Assembly: GCF_000336915.1 (NCBI RefSeq) | Contig: NZ_AOMD01000021.1 | Span: 224,388-288,387 of the forward strand | Length of the DNA stretch: 64,000 nt | Direction of reading: 5' to 3' | From: Halococcus saccharolyticus DSM 5350 | Lineage (GTDB): Archaea; Halobacteriota; Halobacteria; Halobacteriales; Halococcaceae | Shown here: positions 5,480-17,113 of the stretch, one piece after another | Layout: each line of letters opens with the position of its first letter | Numbering within the stretch: the stretch's first letter is position 1 | The notes under the pieces: generated by a model | Told to the model about the DNA's origin: nothing | Databases searched by the model: none | The model's input: only the letters and a program-made list of their open reading frames with translations | Made by a program: the position numbers and the translations under genes

Positions 5480-6013
5480 ATGACGAATCTCTGGGAAGAC
5501 CTCGAAACGGGCCCCGATCCGCCCGAGGAGATCTACGCAGTCGTCGAGTGTCTCAAAGGCGAGCGCAACAAGTATGAGTACGACAAGGACGTGCCCGGCG
5601 TCGTCCTCGACCGGGTGCTCCACTCCAACGTCCACTACCCCTCCGACTACGGGTTCATCCCGCAGAGCTACTACGACGACGAGGACCCCTTCGACGTCCT
5701 CGTGTTGGTCGAGGATCAGACGTTCCCCGGCTGTATCATCGAGGCCCGCCCCGTGGCCCTGATGAAAATGGACGACGACGGCGAGCAGGACGACAAAGTC
5801 ATCGCCGTCCCGAGCGAGGACCCCCGCTACGACCACATCGAAGATCTGGAGGACATCACCCAGCAACAACTCGACGAGATCGACGAGTTCTTCGAGACCT
5901 ACAAGAACTTGGAGGAAGGGAAGGAAGTCGAGACGCAGGGCTGGGAGGATCGACAGGCGGCCTACGACGCGATCGAACACGCTCAGGACCTCTACGCCGA
6001 ACAGTTCGGCTGA
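5480..6013 (+). CDS. ppa: Inorganic pyrophosphatase (family I)
   Basis: Cytoplasmic Mg-dependent hydrolysis of pyrophosphate to two phosphates, which pulls biosynthetic reactions forward. At 177 residues it has the usual size. The family shows in KYEYDKDVPGVVLDRVL, HYPSDYGFIPQSYYDDEDPFDVLVL (with the Asp cluster DDEDPFD) and EDPRYDHI, then KNLEEGKEV. The start is fixed by the strong TATA-like box 30 bases upstream. Stand-alone gene. Confidence 0.97.
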   Translation: MTNLWEDLETGPDPPEEIYAVVECLKGERNKYEYDKDVPGVVLDRVLHSNVHYPSDYGFIPQSYYDDEDPFDVLVLVEDQTFPGCIIEARPVALMKMDDDGEQDDKVIAVPSEDPRYDHIEDLEDITQQQLDEIDEFFETYKNLEEGKEVETQGWEDRQAAYDAIEHAQDLYAEQFG

Positions 6014-6055
6014 ATCTGCGAGAGTTCCTCTCCATCAGTCGGATAGTGAGCGTTG

Positions 6056-6247
6056 ATGAACGCCGATTCTGCCAAGGGATGGACTCTTCGAGCAGTGGGA
6101 TTTCTCGTCTTGATTGTGAGCCAGAGCGGGGATTTCTGGTCGGCCATCCCGGAAAACGCCCAAACTCTACTGCTCACATCTGGTCTGGTGCTATGTCTCT
6201 CCTCTCGATACTATGATACCAAGGCGTATCAGTCGACGAACGATTGA
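6056..6247 (+). CDS. Small predicted membrane protein, unknown
   Basis: 63 residues with two hydrophobic segments (about residues 12-24 and 36-52) separated by a short polar loop. The tail is polar and ends TKAYQSTND. ATG 6056 is used; a TTG just before it is also in frame. The base composition is visibly less GC-rich than neighbouring genes and wobble positions are mixed, so it may be a recent acquisition or a marginal ORF. No family recognised. Confidence 0.4.
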   Translation: MNADSAKGWTLRAVGFLVLIVSQSGDFWSAIPENAQTLLLTSGLVLCLSSRYYDTKAYQSTND

Positions 6248-6311
6248 ACTCTGAGAACAGGTTCCGGGGAAAACACATCTTCAACGTCTACGTCCATCAC
6301 AAACGAAGGCC

Positions 6312-6446
6312 ACTCCCTCCCCAACCGATTCCTTCGCTCGGCGGCCCTCACTTCGTTCGCGCCGCCCGTCGCTCAGTCATCCCTCACACGGTGTTAGCGC
6401 TCGGTGCTCGCTTTCGCTCGCACACGAGCGCGAGCGCGCGCCACCG
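6312..6446 (+). repeat. Dispersed element family 1, copy A
   Basis: Begins ACTCCCTCCCCAACCGATTC, continues with CTTCGCTCG, contains CAGTCATCCCTCACACG, and ends GCGCGCCACCGC. The same start, middle and end recur at 10534-10680 (inverted), 41921-42140 and 43402-43500. The variable middle is rich in CGCTCG-type words. It fills the space between two convergent genes and has no credible reading frame. Confidence 0.7.
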
Positions 6447-6469
6447 CAGACGGTGAGCGGCCCCAGCCG

Positions 6470-6703
6470 TCACTCCCGCGGACAGGTGTCGATGCTGAGT
6501 AGCTTGTTCAGCCCGCAGCGCGCCGTGGCGAAATTGAACAGCAGTCCGGCGCTCCCGAGTGCCGCGACGATCGCCGTCGAGCGCCGATCGGCACGAAACG
6601 AACCAACCGCGATCGCGAGGAGGCACGCACCGATCACGCCACGAGCGATCCGATCGAGACCGCCGACGTTTCGCTCGAACATGCTCACATCTCGGCGTTC
6701 CAT
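6470..6703 (-). CDS. DUF2892 / YgaP-like transmembrane protein
   Basis: 77 residues. The motif FERNVGGLDRIARGVIGACLL opens the domain. Two transmembrane helices follow (about residues 20-35 and 42-58), with a C-terminal CGLNKLLSIDTC segment. This is the usual form of the small DUF2892 membrane protein, often linked to sulfur-transfer or redox proteins elsewhere, but no such partner is here. ATG 6703 is preferred over TTG 6709; ATG 6682 (MFERN) is a further alternative. Confidence 0.8.
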   Translation of the reverse strand: MERRDVSMFERNVGGLDRIARGVIGACLLAIAVGSFRADRRSTAIVAALGSAGLLFNFATARCGLNKLLSIDTCPRE

Positions 6704-6797
6704 CGACAAAAACCGTCGTATTCATCACGGTTATGCCGGAGGTCGCGAGGAATGTGTTAGAATTATGGATAATCTTTTGCGTGCGGGATGCGTAGCG

Positions 6798-6941
6798 ATG
6801 ATCGTGATGGCCGCAAAACGTTCCGGTGCTGGCTTGCAGCACCCCACGGTGGTCCCCGAGAACCTCGTCGACGACGCGGACGGTGCGGACGACGGGACAG
6901 CGCGCTGTCCGGCCTGTGGACAGCCGCTCGGCGAGCACTGA
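6798..6941 (+). CDS. Very small protein with a C-terminal CPACG zinc knuckle
   Basis: 47 residues, too short for many gene finders. The end reads ARCPACGQPLGEH, resembling haloarchaeal small CPxCG-type zinc-finger proteins, though a second Cys pair is missing. The final His and dimerisation could complete a site. An AT-rich TATA-like stretch (TTAGAATTATGGATAATC, near 6760-6777) sits about 30 bases before ATG 6798, which supports this start over ATG 6765. Function unknown. Confidence 0.55.
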   Translation: MIVMAAKRSGAGLQHPTVVPENLVDDADGADDGTARCPACGQPLGEH

Positions 6942-7026
6942 CTGCTGGCGGCTCCCGACGATCCTCGTCCCGTGAGGGGTGACGCCGAAACGAACGTTCT
7001 TTGTGCCCCTCGTGAGTAGCCGCCCC

Positions 7027-8373
7027 ATGGGACTGTTCGACCGCATCCGTGGCGACGACGCCCCGCGCGTCGCCTTCTTCGGTATCGACGGGGTTCCGTA
7101 CAGCCTGATCGAGGACAACCCGGACGTCTTCGAGAACCTCACCGCGCTCGCCCGCGAGGGGAGTTCGGGCGCGATCGATTCGATCGTGCCTCCCGAATCG
7201 AGCGCGTGCTGGCCCTCGCTCACGACTGGCGTCAACCCCGGCGAGACCGGCGTCTACGGCTTCCAGGACCGAGAAGTTGGCTCGTACGAGACCTACGTTC
7301 CGATGGGCCGAGACGTCCAGGCGACTCGTGTCTGGGATCGTGTCGAGGACGAGGGCCGCGACGCAACCGTGATGAACGTCCCCGTGACCTTCCCACCCCA
7401 GCGTGACGTCCAGCGGATGGTTTCGGGTTTCCTCTCGCCCGGCGTCGACGAGGCCGCCTACCCCGACGAACTCCGGGACACCCTCAACGGGCTCGACTAC
7501 CGGATCGACAACAACGCGAAACTCGGTCACGACGACGACAAAAGCGAGTTCATCGAGGACGCCCACGCCACGCTTGACGCCCGGTTCGAAGCCTTTTCGC
7601 ACTACGTCGAGCAGGACGACTGGGACCTCCTCTTCGGCGTGTTCATGACCACCGACCGGGTGAATCACTTCCTGTTCGAGGACTACGAGCGCGACGGCGA
7701 GTACAAAGAGGAGTTCTTCGAGTTCTACAAGAAGGTCGACGAGTACCTCGGTCGGCTGCGCGAGATGCTCCCCGACGACGTCACGATGGCGGTCGCCTCC
7801 GATCACGGCTTCACAGTCCAGGACCACGAGGTTCACTTCAACGAGTGGCTCCACCAGAACGGCTGGCTCGACTACGAAGACGACGATCACGAGAGTCTCG
7901 CGGACATCTCCGACGACACCGAGGCGTACGCGTTCATCCCGGGTCGGTTCTACATCAACCTCGAAGGCCGCGAGCCACGCGGCGCGGTCGCCGAAGAGGA
8001 CTACGAGGAGAAACGCACCGAGCTCAAGAAGGCGCTCGAAACGCTCGAAGGCCCCGACGGCCGGAAGGTCTGCGAGCGCGTCGTCGAGAAGGAGGACGCC
8101 TTCCGCGGGGCCCACGACGATATCGCCCCCGATCTCGTCGCCATCCCGAACCACGGCTTTGACCTCAAGGCCGGCTTCTCGGGTCACGGCAGCGTCTTCG
8201 ACACCGGCCCGCGCAACGGGATGCACAGCTTCGACAACGCCTGCCTGTTCGTCGACGATCCGAACGCCCGCGTCGGTGACGACACCGACCTGTTCGACAT
8301 CGCGCCCACGCTGCTCGACGCGATGGAGATCGACTACGACCGCAGCGAGTTCGACGGATCGAGCCTCGCCTAA
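7027..8373 (+). CDS. Alkaline phosphatase-superfamily phosphodiesterase
   Basis: 448 residues of the type I phosphodiesterase / nucleotide pyrophosphatase fold. Seen are FFGIDGVPYSLIEDN (first metal Asp), SSACWPSLTTGVNPGETGVYGF around the presumed Ser/Thr nucleophile, and ASDHGFTVQDHEVHFN, then SGHGSVFDTGPRNGMHSFDN with further metal-binding His/Asp. No signal peptide, so cytoplasmic. The natural substrate is unknown for the haloarchaeal members. ATG 7027 gives the usual MGLFDRIRG-like start. Confidence 0.88.
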   Translation: MGLFDRIRGDDAPRVAFFGIDGVPYSLIEDNPDVFENLTALAREGSSGAIDSIVPPESSACWPSLTTGVNPGETGVYGFQDREVGSYETYVPMGRDVQATRVWDRVEDEGRDATVMNVPVTFPPQRDVQRMVSGFLSPGVDEAAYPDELRDTLNGLDYRIDNNAKLGHDDDKSEFIEDAHATLDARFEAFSHYVEQDDWDLLFGVFMTTDRVNHFLFEDYERDGEYKEEFFEFYKKVDEYLGRLREMLPDDVTMAVASDHGFTVQDHEVHFNEWLHQNGWLDYEDDDHESLADISDDTEAYAFIPGRFYINLEGREPRGAVAEEDYEEKRTELKKALETLEGPDGRKVCERVVEKEDAFRGAHDDIAPDLVAIPNHGFDLKAGFSGHGSVFDTGPRNGMHSFDNACLFVDDPNARVGDDTDLFDIAPTLLDAMEIDYDRSEFDGSSLA

Positions 8374-8388
8374 CACACCCACTTCCAC

Positions 8389-8394
8389 TTTTTT
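8389..8394 (+). terminator. Oligo-T terminator after the phosphodiesterase gene
   Basis: Six consecutive T residues 16 bases after the stop at 8373, with no strong hairpin in front. Archaeal RNA polymerase terminates at such T-tracts. Confidence 0.4.
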
Positions 8395-8437
8395 ACCGCG
8401 TCCCAAATCGTGCACTGCGGGCGCTCGGAGTCCCTGT

Positions 8438-8594
8438 AAAACCTGGACTAAAAACACCCGCTCACTCGCGCTCCGCGCTCGTTCGCGGTACGACTGCTTG
8501 CGCTCTCCGCGACCGCACAGCACCCCCCGAGCCCTCGGCACTCCCTGCGGTCGTGCCTTCGCCCTCGACCCACCAGGAGAGCTTTGCTCTCCTG
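8438..8594 (+). repeat. Dispersed element family 2, copy E, with perfect hairpin
   Basis: Fills most of the 338-base gene-free gap 8374-8711. Shared blocks with 57561-57714 (inverted) are AAAA..TGGA..AAAAAC, CCCGCTC, CGCGGTAC, CTCTCCGC.ACCGC, GAGCCCTCG and CGCCCTCG..CCACCAGGA. At its end is a perfect hairpin, CAGGAGAGC (8574-8582), loop TTT, GCTCTCCTG (8586-8594). Codons do not favour any frame, so I call it non-coding. Confidence 0.65.
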
Positions 8595-8711
8595 AGCCTC
8601 GACGAGTGAAGCGAGTCGAGACGCCAGGACCGTACTGCGACCACAGCCGCACCGCAATCACCCACCGCCGCCGGCAAAGGTTCAAATCAGAAACCGCGAC
8701 CACCGTGGGGC

Positions 8712-9623
8712 ATGCAGGACGCGTTGGATCGGGCGACGACAAACGCACACGACGACTGCGGCTGCGAGCCACGCATCGAGGGCCGCCGGCTCGTTGTCGA
8801 CGCCACCGACTGCCCGGAGGAGGGTCACCTAGCGGCGAGCCCTGCCTGTCGTGCGAGTGTCGTCGACGCGCTCGTCGGCCGCCCCGTCGTCAGAGTACGA
8901 ACTCGGATCGAGACCGGGGTGTACGTCCACAACGACGGGGCAACGGCGCTGCTGGTCGCCGCCGGGCGGTTCGTCGCGCTCGCCGCGGACCACGATCGGG
9001 CGCTGGCGACCCACGCGCTCGGCGACCCGCTCGGTGCGGCCCGCGTCGCGGCCGGTCGCACCGGACCCGTTGCGGAATTCGCGGCCGCAACCGGGCTGAT
9101 CGAGGGCGCACGGCGCGCCACGGGCTACGACGACGCGTTCGCCACCCGCTCCACGACCGAACTCAATTCACTTACGTCGGCGAGCATTACTCCGAATATG
9201 TTCCACGACATCGACGATGCGGGCGATCTCTCGCCCGACGAACTCCGCGCGCGCTACGATCAGCGCCTCCGAGCCGTGATCGAGGAACACGGTGTCGAGA
9301 TCGTCGCCGACGAGGCTGGCGTCGCGAGCGAGCCGGTCACGGCGCTCGCCGAGGGCGAATCACCCGAACTCACGCTCGAAGAAGCTGCGGCGATCCTCGC
9401 CGTGAGCGAGGACGAACCCGACGCGGAGGCCATCGTGCTCGAAACCCGTGATCACCTCCTGATGGGGATGACGACCGCCGTCCTCGACGTCGAGGCGGTC
9501 GAGTCCGGGATCGATGGCGCGCTCGACGCCCGCGAGATCCAGCAGAAGATCGAGGGGCGGCTCCCGATGGATCTCGACGAACTCGCCACCATTCACGGCT
9601 ACATCGAGGAGCGCAAACCGTGA
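8712..9623 (+). CDS. DUF5791 protein, in frame behind a secretion-ATPase-like N-terminal region
   Basis: Two unlike parts in one reading frame. Residues 1-160 (CGCEPRIEGRRLVVDATDCP, ASPACRASVVDAL, ALLVAAGRFV, GPVAEFAAATGL) resemble the start of haloarchaeal type II/IV secretion ATPases. The catalytic Walker domain is absent. From ATG 9198 (MFHDIDDAG) to the end, 141 residues match the complete DUF5791 family, including RLPMDLDELATIHGYIEERK. An AT-richer stretch before 9198 could be its own promoter. So this may be a functional fusion, or a normal DUF5791 gene with a relic in front. The role of DUF5791 is unknown. Confidence 0.7.
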   Translation: MQDALDRATTNAHDDCGCEPRIEGRRLVVDATDCPEEGHLAASPACRASVVDALVGRPVVRVRTRIETGVYVHNDGATALLVAAGRFVALAADHDRALATHALGDPLGAARVAAGRTGPVAEFAAATGLIEGARRATGYDDAFATRSTTELNSLTSASITPNMFHDIDDAGDLSPDELRARYDQRLRAVIEEHGVEIVADEAGVASEPVTALAEGESPELTLEEAAAILAVSEDEPDAEAIVLETRDHLLMGMTTAVLDVEAVESGIDGALDAREIQQKIEGRLPMDLDELATIHGYIEERKP

Positions 9624-10510
9624 CCCGCGTCGCCATTCTGGGGTGTGGCTACGTCGGTCTCGAACTCGGCCGCCAGCTCGCGCCCGATCACGACGTCGTC
9701 GGGGTGCGCCGCTCGGCGGACGGCGTCGAGCGGATCGAGCGCGCCGGATTCGACGCCATCCAAGCCGACGTCACCGATCCCGACGGCCTCGCGCGCGTTC
9801 CGGACGCCGACGCCGTGGTGTTCGCGGCGAGTTCGGGTGGACGGGACGCAGACGCCGCGCGCGAGATCTACGTCGACGGCCTCCGGACCGCGATCGAGAT
9901 CTTCGGCACGCGAGACCACCCGCCAGACCGCCTGGTCTACACTTCCTCGACCGGTGTCTACGGCGACCACGACGGCGCGTGGGTCGACGAGGACACGCCG
10001 ATCGAGCCGACGACCGAGAAGACCGAGGTGCTCGCCGAGGCCGAGCGGATCGCCCGCGAGGAAGCCAGCGATCACGGCATTGCGGGAACGGTCGCGCGCT
10101 TTGCGGGGCTGTACGGCCCCGACCGCTACCGGCTCGACCGCTACCTCGACGGTCCCGTGACGGCGGGCTATCTTAACATGATCCACCGCGACGACGCCGC
10201 CGGCGCGATCCGATTCCTCCTCGAAACCGACGCCGCCCGCGACGACACAGTGCTCGTCGTCGACGACGAACCCGTCCCCAAGCACGCGTTCGCCGACTGG
10301 CTCGCCGACGAGTGCGACGTTCCGCGCCCCGCAAAGCGCACCAAAGCCGAGCGCCTCGAAGACGGCGACCTCTCTGCGGCTGCACGCCGCCGGATCGAGA
10401 CCTCGAAACGGTGTGCGAACGACGAGCTCCGCGATCTGGGCTACGAGTTCACGTACCCGACCTACCGCGAGGGGTATCGGGCGGCGATCGACGCGTACCG
10501 GAACGGATGA
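9620..10510 (+). CDS. NAD-dependent epimerase/dehydratase-family protein (YeeZ-like)
   Basis: 296 residues, extended SDR fold. The N-terminus has VAILGCGYVGLELGRQL, the dinucleotide-binding loop of the atypical GxGxxG type found in YeeZ-like proteins. VYTSSTGVYGDHDG carries the Ser and Tyr positions, but the canonical YxxxK is replaced by a TEKTEVLAEAE segment. The GTG start overlaps the preceding stop as GTGA, so it is coupled to the DUF5791 gene. Substrate unknown. Confidence 0.85.
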   Translation: MTRVAILGCGYVGLELGRQLAPDHDVVGVRRSADGVERIERAGFDAIQADVTDPDGLARVPDADAVVFAASSGGRDADAAREIYVDGLRTAIEIFGTRDHPPDRLVYTSSTGVYGDHDGAWVDEDTPIEPTTEKTEVLAEAERIAREEASDHGIAGTVARFAGLYGPDRYRLDRYLDGPVTAGYLNMIHRDDAAGAIRFLLETDAARDDTVLVVDDEPVPKHAFADWLADECDVPRPAKRTKAERLEDGDLSAAARRRIETSKRCANDELRDLGYEFTYPTYREGYRAAIDAYRNG

Positions 10511-12798: not shown

Positions 12799-13197
12799 AC
12801 ATCTATGTCTCGCGGTACGGAACATGTTTCACACCTTGACACACGATGCAGGAGGTAAGTATTCCATACTCGGGGTCATCCGTACGGATGGAACCGCCTC
12901 TGGTTCCGTGCGCACGGGATCCGGTCCGTTGCCCTGGCATCATCTCCCGTGCCTTTTCGCCACGACAGTAGATCGCAGCGCTCGCCGTCACAAACCGGCG
13001 AGCGCGGGTGCATCCGGAAGATTTGATTGATCGCCTCGCGTAGCGTCGGCCGTGTCACGGAGCCCGCTATCCGGCCCGCCGCGTTCGTCGCGACCTCGCC
13101 CGATTCTCTGCCGCTCGCTCTCCGCTGTCAGGTTTCCCAAACCCCAGAGTACCGACGGGTCGCCGACCGTGAGGACGGCCGTACGGGGATCGTAATC
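12799..13197. other. 399-base gene-free region with two hairpins
   Basis: No frame here looks coding. It contains GGAACC (12890-12895) pairing with GGTTCC (12902-12907). A stronger 10-base stem follows: GCGCTCGCCG (12978-12987), an 8-base loop, CGGCGAGCGC (12996-13005). Around 12857-12898 it loosely repeats the promoter-and-start layout of the preceding regulator gene. I see no tRNA-like fold. An upstream in-frame extension of the next gene covers 13027-13197, but homologues start at 13198. Confidence 0.45.
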
Positions 13198-15187: not shown

Positions 15188-15211
15188 GCCCCGGCGGCGC
15201 GTTCGATGGGT

Positions 15212-15811
15212 ATGGATCTCGCGCGGGTGGCTCGGTACGCGGCCACGGCGGTCACCGACGAGCAGCGGGAGGCGGCCGTACTCGCGCCAGTCATCACCCG
15301 CGAGGACAACCCGTACCTCCTCTTTACCAAGCGCGCCGACCACCTCGGCGAGCATCCGGGTCAGATGAGCTTTCCCGGGGGCGGCCGCGAACCGAGCGAC
15401 GAGGACCTCACCGCAACCGCGCTCCGGGAGGCAAACGAGGAGATCGGCCTCGATCCGGAAACCGCCGACGTGATCGGCCGGCTCGACGACATCCGGACGG
15501 TGACGGAGTACGCGGTCCGGCCGTTCGTCGCCCGCGTCCCCGACCGCGAGTACGTCCCCGACGAGCGCGAGGTCGCCGAGGTAGCAGTCCTCTCGGTGGC
15601 AGAGCTCACCGACCCGGCGAACTACGACTCAGAGCGCCGCGACCACCCTCACTACGGCGAGATCCGACTTCACTTCTTCCGGGTCGACGACTACGTGGTC
15701 TGGGGCGCGACTGGGCGCATCCTCGCCCAGCTTCTCGAACTGACGACCGACTGGCGCGTGCCCGACGAGCCGGATCGCGTGGTCGATCCCGACGCCGACT
15801 TTCCGGTGTAA
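15212..15811 (+). CDS. NUDIX hydrolase, CoA-pyrophosphatase type
   Basis: 199 residues. The NUDIX box is complete: GREPSDEDLTATALREANEE followed by IG, preceded by HLGEHPGQMSFPGG, which marks the CoA diphosphatase (YeaB/NUDT7) branch. Such enzymes cut CoA or oxidised CoA to 4'-phosphopantetheine and ADP derivatives. The C-terminus VWGATGRILAQLLEL is also typical. ATG 15212 is used; ATG 15206 is two codons upstream. Follows the DUF gene at 14630. Confidence 0.9.
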   Translation: MDLARVARYAATAVTDEQREAAVLAPVITREDNPYLLFTKRADHLGEHPGQMSFPGGGREPSDEDLTATALREANEEIGLDPETADVIGRLDDIRTVTEYAVRPFVARVPDREYVPDEREVAEVAVLSVAELTDPANYDSERRDHPHYGEIRLHFFRVDDYVVWGATGRILAQLLELTTDWRVPDEPDRVVDPDADFPV

Positions 15812-15862
15812 TCCCACCGTTTGCTGCGCTCAGTCGCGCGCTACGCGCGCTCCTTCGCTGGC

Positions 15863-15980
15863 AAAATGTGGATCAAAAGCCTCCTCCCTCCCGGTGGTCG
15901 GTCGTCGGCCCGCTCGTTCACGTTGCTCACTCGCGGTGGAGGCGCTGGCGCAACCACCACCGCACCGCGCTCACTCTCCG
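15863..15980 (+). repeat. Dispersed element family 2, copy G (divergent)
   Basis: Starts AAAATGTGGATCAAAAGCC, nearly identical to the start of copy F at 57714, then CCCGCTCGTTCACG, CTCACTCGCGG and CACCGCACCGCGC blocks in the family order. The middle is shorter and more diverged than in E and F. A GCGCGC-TAC-GCGCGC hairpin lies just before it. It ends in the tail of the methylase relic. Confidence 0.5.
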
Positions 15981-16290
15981 ACCGCTTCCTCCACGATCTC
16001 GATTTCTCCGTCAGTCAGCCCGTACAACTCATAACTCATAGACGATCTCGTCGATCAGGTCGTCGGTGCGCTTGATTTTCTCGTCCAACTCCGCCGCACG
16101 CTCGCGGGCGTCCATGTAGCGCTCGATGCCACCCTCGATATCCGCCAGCGCGGGCAGCGTCAGGTCCTCCAGCCGGTCGAGCGGCGAGATCGTCGCGGTG
16201 GCGTTGTCTCGATAGCCCGCGAAGCCGCCGGCCTCGGCGACCGCGTGGGGCACGAACGCCTCAATGAGGTCGGCCTCGGCCCCACTCAGC
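15971..16290 (-). pseudogene. C-terminal relic of an Eco57I-type DNA methylase, frameshifted
   Basis: About 110 codons match the extreme C-terminus of haloarchaeal restriction-modification methylases: ADLIEAFVPHAVAEAGGFAG, LTLPALADIEGGIERYMDAR and KRTDDLIDEIVYEL. The frame then stops at 16029. A 7-base tandem duplication on the plus strand, ACTCATA at 16027-16033 and 16034-16040, causes this. Removing one unit restores YGLTDGEIEIVEEAVGE and a stop at 15971, the normal family ending. Homology begins within a few bases of the stop of the next gene upstream, so the body of the methylase has been deleted. Confidence 0.75.
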
Positions 16291-16294
16291 CCGG

Positions 16295-17113
16295 CTACAC
16301 CCGCCGGACGAGATGCGCCCGGATCGCCCGCTGGCACCGATCGCAGACCTCGATGACCCGAGCCACCGTCGAAAGAATCGGATACGCCACCGGGAACGCG
16401 TCGTAGAGACACGCCGCGAGATCCTGGTGGGCGATACCGGCCTCGCCGTCACCGGTGGTGGTCGCACGAAGCACCGACTGCCGGTCGCGAGCAACGGTTG
16501 CACACTCCTCCCGGAACTCGTCGAGCCGATCGTGACGTGCTCGAAGCGCCTCGAAACCGAGCTCGGTGAGCGGTGTCTCGTTGACCTCGACGATCCACCC
16601 GAGCACGTCGTCGAGAGTGTCCGTCGCCTCGACGAGCGATTCGGCTTCGCGATCGAGCGCCCTCTCCATCGCCCGCAGCTCGGATCGTCGCTGTGTTACC
16701 TCGGACAGGACACCGTTCTTGATCCCGGCGGTGAAGCCGACGGTGGCGTTCTGTGGCGCGAGCGCCACCGCAACTTGCTCGGACAGCTCGGCGGCGATCG
16801 CTTCGAGCAGCGTCTCGCCGTCGTCGACGTCCGCAGTGCTGTGCGGGCGGACGGTCGTGGCGAACTGTTCTCTGACCCGTTCACAACGATCCGATCCACC
16901 CGTCCCGCTCGACTGCATCGTGGCAACCGAACCGGCCGTCGTCTGCTGGCCAGCCGTCGCCTGCCGGGTGGCCTGTGTTCCGGATGGCGTGTCGACCGAC
17001 AGCTGCTCGATCTCGCGGACGAACCGCCCGTAGGCAGTCTGCTTTTCCGTGACAACGGCCTGTTCGTCCCGAACGCGGTCGAGTGCCTGTCGAACGTGTG
17101 TTTCGACGGTCAT
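16295..17113 (-). CDS. Haloarchaeal protein of the DUF7260 type
   Basis: 272 residues, mostly helical, with coiled-coil-like stretches (VRQALDRVRDEQAVVTEKQT at the start; RSELRAMERALDREAESLVE in the middle). It includes an Ala/Thr-rich linker and a CPxxC-free C-terminus with VCDRCQRAI. I recall DUF7260 for such proteins; the number is from memory. ATG 17113 overlaps the stop of the previous gene as ATGA. Its end abuts a deleted methylase, so the final residues may be new. No function known. Confidence 0.65.
   Translation of the reverse strand: MTVETHVRQALDRVRDEQAVVTEKQTAYGRFVREIEQLSVDTPSGTQATRQATAGQQTTAGSVATMQSSGTGGSDRCERVREQFATTVRPHSTADVDDGETLLEAIAAELSEQVAVALAPQNATVGFTAGIKNGVLSEVTQRRSELRAMERALDREAESLVEATDTLDDVLGWIVEVNETPLTELGFEALRARHDRLDEFREECATVARDRQSVLRATTTGDGEAGIAHQDLAACLYDAFPVAYPILSTVARVIEVCDRCQRAIRAHLVRRV

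Follow-up and report, generated by a model that had tools for sequence, protein, structure and literature searches.

A probable pseudogene scar of a restriction-methylase gene in Halococcus saccharolyticus DSM 5350 and the recurrence of methylase tails in haloarchaea

What is the short methylase-like stretch that lies between a DUF7260 gene and a NUDIX gene in Halococcus saccharolyticus DSM 5350, and how did it come to be there without the rest of its gene? The window, i.e., the whole stretch of 64,000 nucleotides that was analysed (contig NZ_AOMD01000021.1, positions 224,388 to 288,387), carries on its minus strand, at 15971-16292, the last ~104 codons and the stop codon of an Eco57I/TaqI_C-type methylase gene, with 86% protein identity to the end of an open 1379-codon orthologue in another genome of the same genus (G002); it was also compared with a 14-row tail alignment. 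We consider it very probable (about 0.92) that this locus is a pseudogene scar, produced by a deletion and a frameshift in a restriction-methylase gene. The original prediction had described the dead tail of an Eco57I-like methylase; the full-length G002 orthologue bears out this description, except that the tail is about 105 rather than 110 codons long.

A search with the tail in 60 genomes, including that of H. saccharolyticus itself, gave matches in 34 of them at E 0.01. The most informative was G002, a sister genome of the kind in which the original prediction had advised looking for an intact gene. There, the gene is open at the same locus (L026:5981-10120, with the start codon set by homology), and the genes on its two sides are orthologues of DUF7260 (84% identical to that of the window) and NUDIX. 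The agreement in gene order extends to DUF7552, FAD, an 82-codon gene, a binding protein, and an aldo-keto reductase on one side and to DUF7109 and the genes at 13027 and 11965 on the other, so that the window copy, by orthology and by its neighbours, can be regarded as the remnant of a full-length member of this family.

The G002 orthologue matches PF07669 Eco57I (E 8e-29) and PF12950 TaqI_C (E 4e-16), both above the cut-off, as well as N6_Mtase, and it carries the NPPY motif. Its translation shows a D...EAK pattern at residues 97-139, a candidate for the fused nuclease that a type IIG enzyme would carry. The best PADLOC model was DrmMI, with type IIG models also matching at a lower score; those of its neighbours that were identified are genes other than the DISARM partners drmA, drmB, and drmC, the PADLOC scan having covered the methylase itself. 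The gene does not qualify as the PglX of BREX, since BREX_1_MTaseX gave 100 bits against an NCBIfam cut-off of 500. By its domain content, the G002 gene is a predicted restriction-methylase of the Eco57I/TaqI_C type, which is type IIG-like, and resembles the enzymes of this type in Halobacteria in its PF07669, N6_Mtase, and TaqI_C matches and in the NPPY motif, whereas the window copy differs from them in retaining only the last ~104 codons, frameshifted and without the catalytic parts. The tail frame of the window alone has no Pfam family match at E 0.1, which leaves it without a catalytic methylase domain that would mark a working enzyme, and its assignment to Eco57I follows from the matches of the full-length orthologue to the Eco57I and TaqI_C families. 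The H. saccharolyticus genome also contains a paralogue, a 1426-codon frame on another contig (C29) with a tail ~63% identical to that of the window, which was the sole match in this genome to a query with the front of the gene at E 1e-5.

The edge of the remnant is sharp. Methylase homology begins at 16292, two bases past the stop codon of DUF7260 (16297-16295), in agreement with the earlier claim that the upstream edge abuts this gene, and the junction can be placed at 16292-16295 (minus strand). Relative to G002, 3,970 bases are missing here (aligned to L026 at about 5836-9805), namely ~145 bases ahead of the start codon and codons 1-1275 of 1379, and so the methylase body was indeed lost. 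The heptamer GGGCTGA is present in G002 at the right end of the deletion and slightly beyond its left end, but as a repeat that might have guided the deletion it is no more than suggestive. The DUF7260 gene itself (16295-17113, minus strand; Pfam PF23921, E 2e-73) is open and is the original upstream neighbour, with an orthologue in the same place in G002. On the other side, the convergent NUDIX gene (15206-15811, plus strand; assigned by Pfam) is 95% identical in G002 and G003, another member of the genus, and was found in 9 of the 10 genomes of the genus, including that of H. saccharolyticus, which makes it a marker of the site. The view that accessory genes had replaced a former defence locus had to be abandoned: orthologues of the DUF7260, DUF7552, FAD, 82-codon, and binding-protein genes, 84-92% identical, stand directly beside the open gene in G002 and are its original neighbours. 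Therefore, the event in the window is most simply a deletion, because G002 holds the open orthologue in the same gene order, and we infer that the G002 state is ancestral.

The second lesion lies within the tail. As the original prediction had noted, ACTCATA is present twice in tandem on the plus strand, at 16027-16033 and 16034-16040, and this duplication shifts the minus-strand frame. Read separately, the upstream frame of the remnant terminates as YEL-stop, with the premature stop codon at 16031-16029, while the frame downstream of the duplication gives YGLTDGEIEIVEEAVGE followed by the gene's own stop codon at 15973-15971, the normal ending that had been anticipated. Alignment to the G002 orthologue shows a clean 7-base insertion, and none of the tails of 14 relatives aligned over this point carries it. 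It is this comparison that makes the duplication meaningful, and not the rarity of such a tandem, an argument that was rejected because the window contains 10 starts of perfect 7+7 tandems, where Markov-shuffled sequence would lead one to expect 12.5.

Judged from its reading frames, the gene is doubly dead, with its body lost and the remaining tail frameshifted. The duplication had been proposed as what killed the gene. It does break the frame; however, the loss of codons 1-1275 would have been enough, and the duplication is most simply a later decay, the order of the two events being our reconstruction. In an ancestor, DUF7260 and NUDIX would have enclosed a complete Eco57I/TaqI_C-type, type IIG-like gene, as they do in G002. 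A deletion that began just past the stop codon of DUF7260, removed the region ahead of the methylase together with its first ~1275 codons, and stopped inside the conserved tail would have ended the function of the gene, and the 7-base tandem duplication would additionally have broken the leftover frame.

Three states of the site were distinguished in the genus: an open gene in G002, the tail only in the window genome (G000), and, at what is probably the same site, a two-gene module with a tail in G003. The module consists of an AAA_5 ATPase related to McrB and a protein of ~450 residues, a putative nuclease. In G003 it is accompanied by a different tail and followed, after ~1.2 kb of other genes, by the NUDIX/DUF7109/GT/HTH block (the genes at 13027 and 11965 after DUF7109). 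This site was recognised by one flank, because the contig ends past the module and DUF7260 was not found in the G003 genome. A further genome, G007, has an open, diverged methylase (56%); there, unlike in G002, the NUDIX-to-HTH block is turned round with respect to the methylase (L161:3013-12522).

Predicted methylase tails in short frames recur in haloarchaea, which is new here. In the order (392 genomes), 200 genomes have a match to the tail at E 1e-5, and 161 have one to the first ~130 residues of the gene, a front that is less conserved than the tail. When 150 listed matches of each kind, not corrected for kinship, were compared, frames of fewer than 250 codons accounted for 29 of the 150 tails (window included) and 5 of the 150 fronts (Fisher p 1.3e-5). 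Seven of these short-frame tails have the front close by or lie at a contig end (the latter is G292); without them, the listed counts are 22/150 and 5/150 (p 9e-4), the fronts being left uncorrected. At four loci (L171, L173, L034, and L193), at least two successive methylase tail pieces occur, as if left behind repeatedly. In G210 (L174, reverse strand, about 8101-8505), a 134-codon frame joins the first ~34 and the last ~99 positions of the methylase model, a fusion that corresponds to an in-frame internal deletion.

Several observations weigh against the interpretation of the window tail as a scar. The deletion and the duplication were read from a draft assembly. No methylase was found near NUDIX (roughly 9 kb on each side) in G004, G005, G006, G008, and G009, and because of these five genomes the direction of the event rests on orthology with G002. 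Elsewhere, six of the short-frame tails (in G013, G017 on contig C63, G210, G373, G390, and G174) keep the front nearby, and the low dN/dS of one pair of tails, discussed below, tells against a pure scar in their case. Relaxed selection on the window tail left no clear sign, and the result depends on the outgroup: with G005, dN/dS on the window branch was 0.18 against 0.17 on the G002 branch, and higher in 52% of bootstraps, while with G009 it was 0.42 against 0.02, and higher in 98% of bootstraps. Dating of the gene death by dN/dS was dropped for this reason. Earlier pairwise values, which included junction residues, were 0.23 for the window against G002 and 0.08-0.25 among G001, G002, G005, and G009.

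A variant of the scar interpretation is that the window lineage first exchanged the methylase body for the McrB-like module, as in G003, and then lost the module, leaving the tail. The arrangement in G003, with module and tail ahead of the same block of neighbours, would fit such a history. However, no trace of the module was found between DUF7260 and the tail, the second module gene has no match in the H. saccharolyticus genome at E 1e-10, and the window tail is 86% identical to the G002 methylase versus 62% to the G003 tail. Moreover, only one flank is common with G003, whose contig ends beyond the module, and a single deletion from the G002 state is simpler, which makes this detour very improbable.

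One could also suppose that selection has maintained the tail as a short working gene or as a regulatory element, both in the window and elsewhere among haloarchaea. In favour of this, short frames are met more often with tails than with fronts; tails of G114 and G276 share one common junction and have a dN/dS of about 0.22, next to 0.09 for the second gene of the module, and the value for G057 and G243 is 0.29. Nevertheless, the frame in the window is broken, and the sole long open frame over the tail begins inside DUF7260. Break points in other genomes vary, with the pieces found starting at methylase model positions from 1254 to 1394; a low dN/dS would also result from gene conversion with full-length genes, and some of the codons behind the G114/G276 value lie within the second module gene as well. 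According to the original prediction, it would be contradicted if close relatives kept the same short frame by selection: short tails, including the pair with low dN/dS, do exist elsewhere, but their break points differ and, where the tree resolves, they are placed next to genes of the genus they come from. We regard a selected function as very improbable. Least credible of all is an artefact in which 4 kb went missing or collapsed and a false 7-base repeat arose: although the assembly is a draft of 36 contigs, the junction lies within a contig of 371 kb, and the one further sequence in the genome that matches the tail strongly, ~63% identical, is too distant to collapse with it. A pseudogene scar thus remains the preferred interpretation.

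The module found in G003 is widespread. The second protein has matches at E 1e-10 in 127 of the 392 genomes of the order, and 31 named records were found for it, two of them from Nanohaloarchaea-type organisms. Examples of module loci are L024:10260-13146, L028:1-2353, L032:5509-9151, and L037:7160-10067. The ATPase of G004 can be assigned to the McrB-type NTPases by its match to McrB (6hz4; E 1e-12); the PRK11331 McrB model matched with E 8e-14, yet with 51 bits against a cut-off of 637. Three copies of the second protein were searched and none fell into a Pfam or PADLOC family; the protein has the conserved pattern RPDVI.LE...EYLITEVKNS. A structure model built from 20 rows (pLDDT 64, pTM 0.55) had no Foldseek match under E 0.001. 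Its C-terminal half aligns weakly with several nucleases in VIA-align rows, with Can2 as the best (Z 7.7), and the alignment to McrC of 6hz4 (Z 6.2, rmsd 5.0, 128 aligned residues) is too weak to settle an assignment to the McrC type.

Among 72 module loci, 15 have a same-strand tail at most 300 bases downstream and three a tail in the opposite orientation on the other side, while 54 showed no tail in the stretch examined. A model of the whole methylase, applied to 64 of the 72 loci, found a piece in 17; every piece starts at or after position 1254 of about 1416, and neither the front nor the middle of a methylase was detected in these 64 loci. In a tree of 64 tails (118 columns), 34 of the 61 inner branches remained open. 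Its 11 module-linked tails require 9 changes, compared with a mean of 10.4 for shuffled labels (67 of 500 shuffles as low), and are thus unclustered; several of them fall together with genes from the same genus. This does not support the idea that the module has the tail as a constant third gene, and the same pattern favours resident scars over a tail travelling with the module.

Direct comparisons of sites point to exchanges. G009, with a full and open gene, and G004, with the module and a tail, have flanks 91-93% identical, and the tail stretch of G004 is ~90% identical to that of G009. The same swap was observed in G066/G038, G080/G073, G220/G114, and G194/G270, with matches on both sides, the right seam in the tail, and DNA identities of 77-92% in the main matching stretches. 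The methylase is open in G066 and G080 as well, and is split by a stop codon into two frames in G220 and G194. In these five same-genus pairs, the predicted methylase and the putative module with its tail occupy one site. No clean swap was seen in G119/G215 and G276/G220 (match confined to the tail region), G119/G138 (matching flanks blurred by tandem repeats), G114/G211 (one flank and a weak tail match), and G270/G197 (one side only, because of a contig end).

The conserved 3' end of the methylase gene may therefore be a recurrent seam, with the module lying where the body lay in several lineages, and recombination or deletion at such loci may have its right-hand limit in the tail. More tentatively, and at somewhat less than even odds, we propose that it is a recurrent end point of allele replacement at haloarchaeal defence loci, where either the McrB-like ATPase and nuclease module or nothing takes the place of the body and about the last 45-165 codons of the gene remain, perhaps since an active methylase cannot be kept at one site together with a modification-dependent nuclease. 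The window would then represent the "nothing" state and G003 the "module" state of one locus. Loss of the body may be selectively cheap, or even required on the arrival of a modification-dependent nuclease. Such a conflict would explain why the body is lost when the module arrives; yet 21 genomes carry both, against 27.9 expected (hypergeometric p 0.04), where the underlying figures (76, 144, and 21) come from a manual count with no correction for kinship. Genome-wide mutual exclusion of the methylase and the module is thus weak at best.

Repeats were also noticed at some of these loci. Between the convergent NUDIX and methylase stops of the window lies an intergenic dispersed repeat (15813-15968, without assigned strand); a 229-base query (15812-16040) gave 24 matches in the same genome, 22 of them besides the window itself and the paralogue tail, and all of these 22 end before the coding part of the methylase. 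In G114 and G138, a unit of ~150 bases, comprising the last few methylase codons and a downstream stretch, is repeated, partly in tandem, and in G220 diverged inverted copies of it flank the methylase gene ~6 kb apart (the loci in these three genomes are L191:10531-12529, L195:4102-4213 and 10229-10336, and L190:12025-14096).

In Halobacteria, restriction-modification (RM) genes are patchy and subject to frequent transfer and loss (Fullmer et al. 2019, PMC6471742, section 3.1), and the window can be seen as one such loss with the scar kept. The main text of that survey does not contain the words "pseudogene", "remnant", "partial", or "McrB", and so has no description of tail scars or of exchanges with the module under these terms. 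Homologues of mcrBC have been found often linked to methylase homologues, some of them type IIG, in a study of competition between McrBC and methylases (Fukuda et al. 2008, PMC2614495), and a McrBC census also reports methylase associations (PMC11090510). Here, unlike in the former study, the McrB-like module, which may or may not cut methylated DNA, stands in the place of the body with only the methylase tail left. In a 2022 report (PMC8989522), a resident nuclease that depends on modification was in conflict with a methylase producing the mark that it attacks, and the conflict was resolved by silencing of the nuclease, whereas any conflict here would be resolved by loss of the methylase body. 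Judged by titles or abstract openings in PMC, no paper on tail scars or a methylase/module swap was found, which does not prove their absence.

Taken alone, the window holds an ordinary dead RM gene, whose record of death is unusually clear thanks to the open sister gene. For annotators, it indicates that isolated "methylase" frames of 100-200 codons in haloarchaea can be scars. The wider pattern would matter more: mapped pairs in five genera place the methylase and the McrB-like module at one site with the tail as the seam, and such same-site pairs would make the proposed conflict between a methylase and a modification-dependent nuclease testable in archaea.
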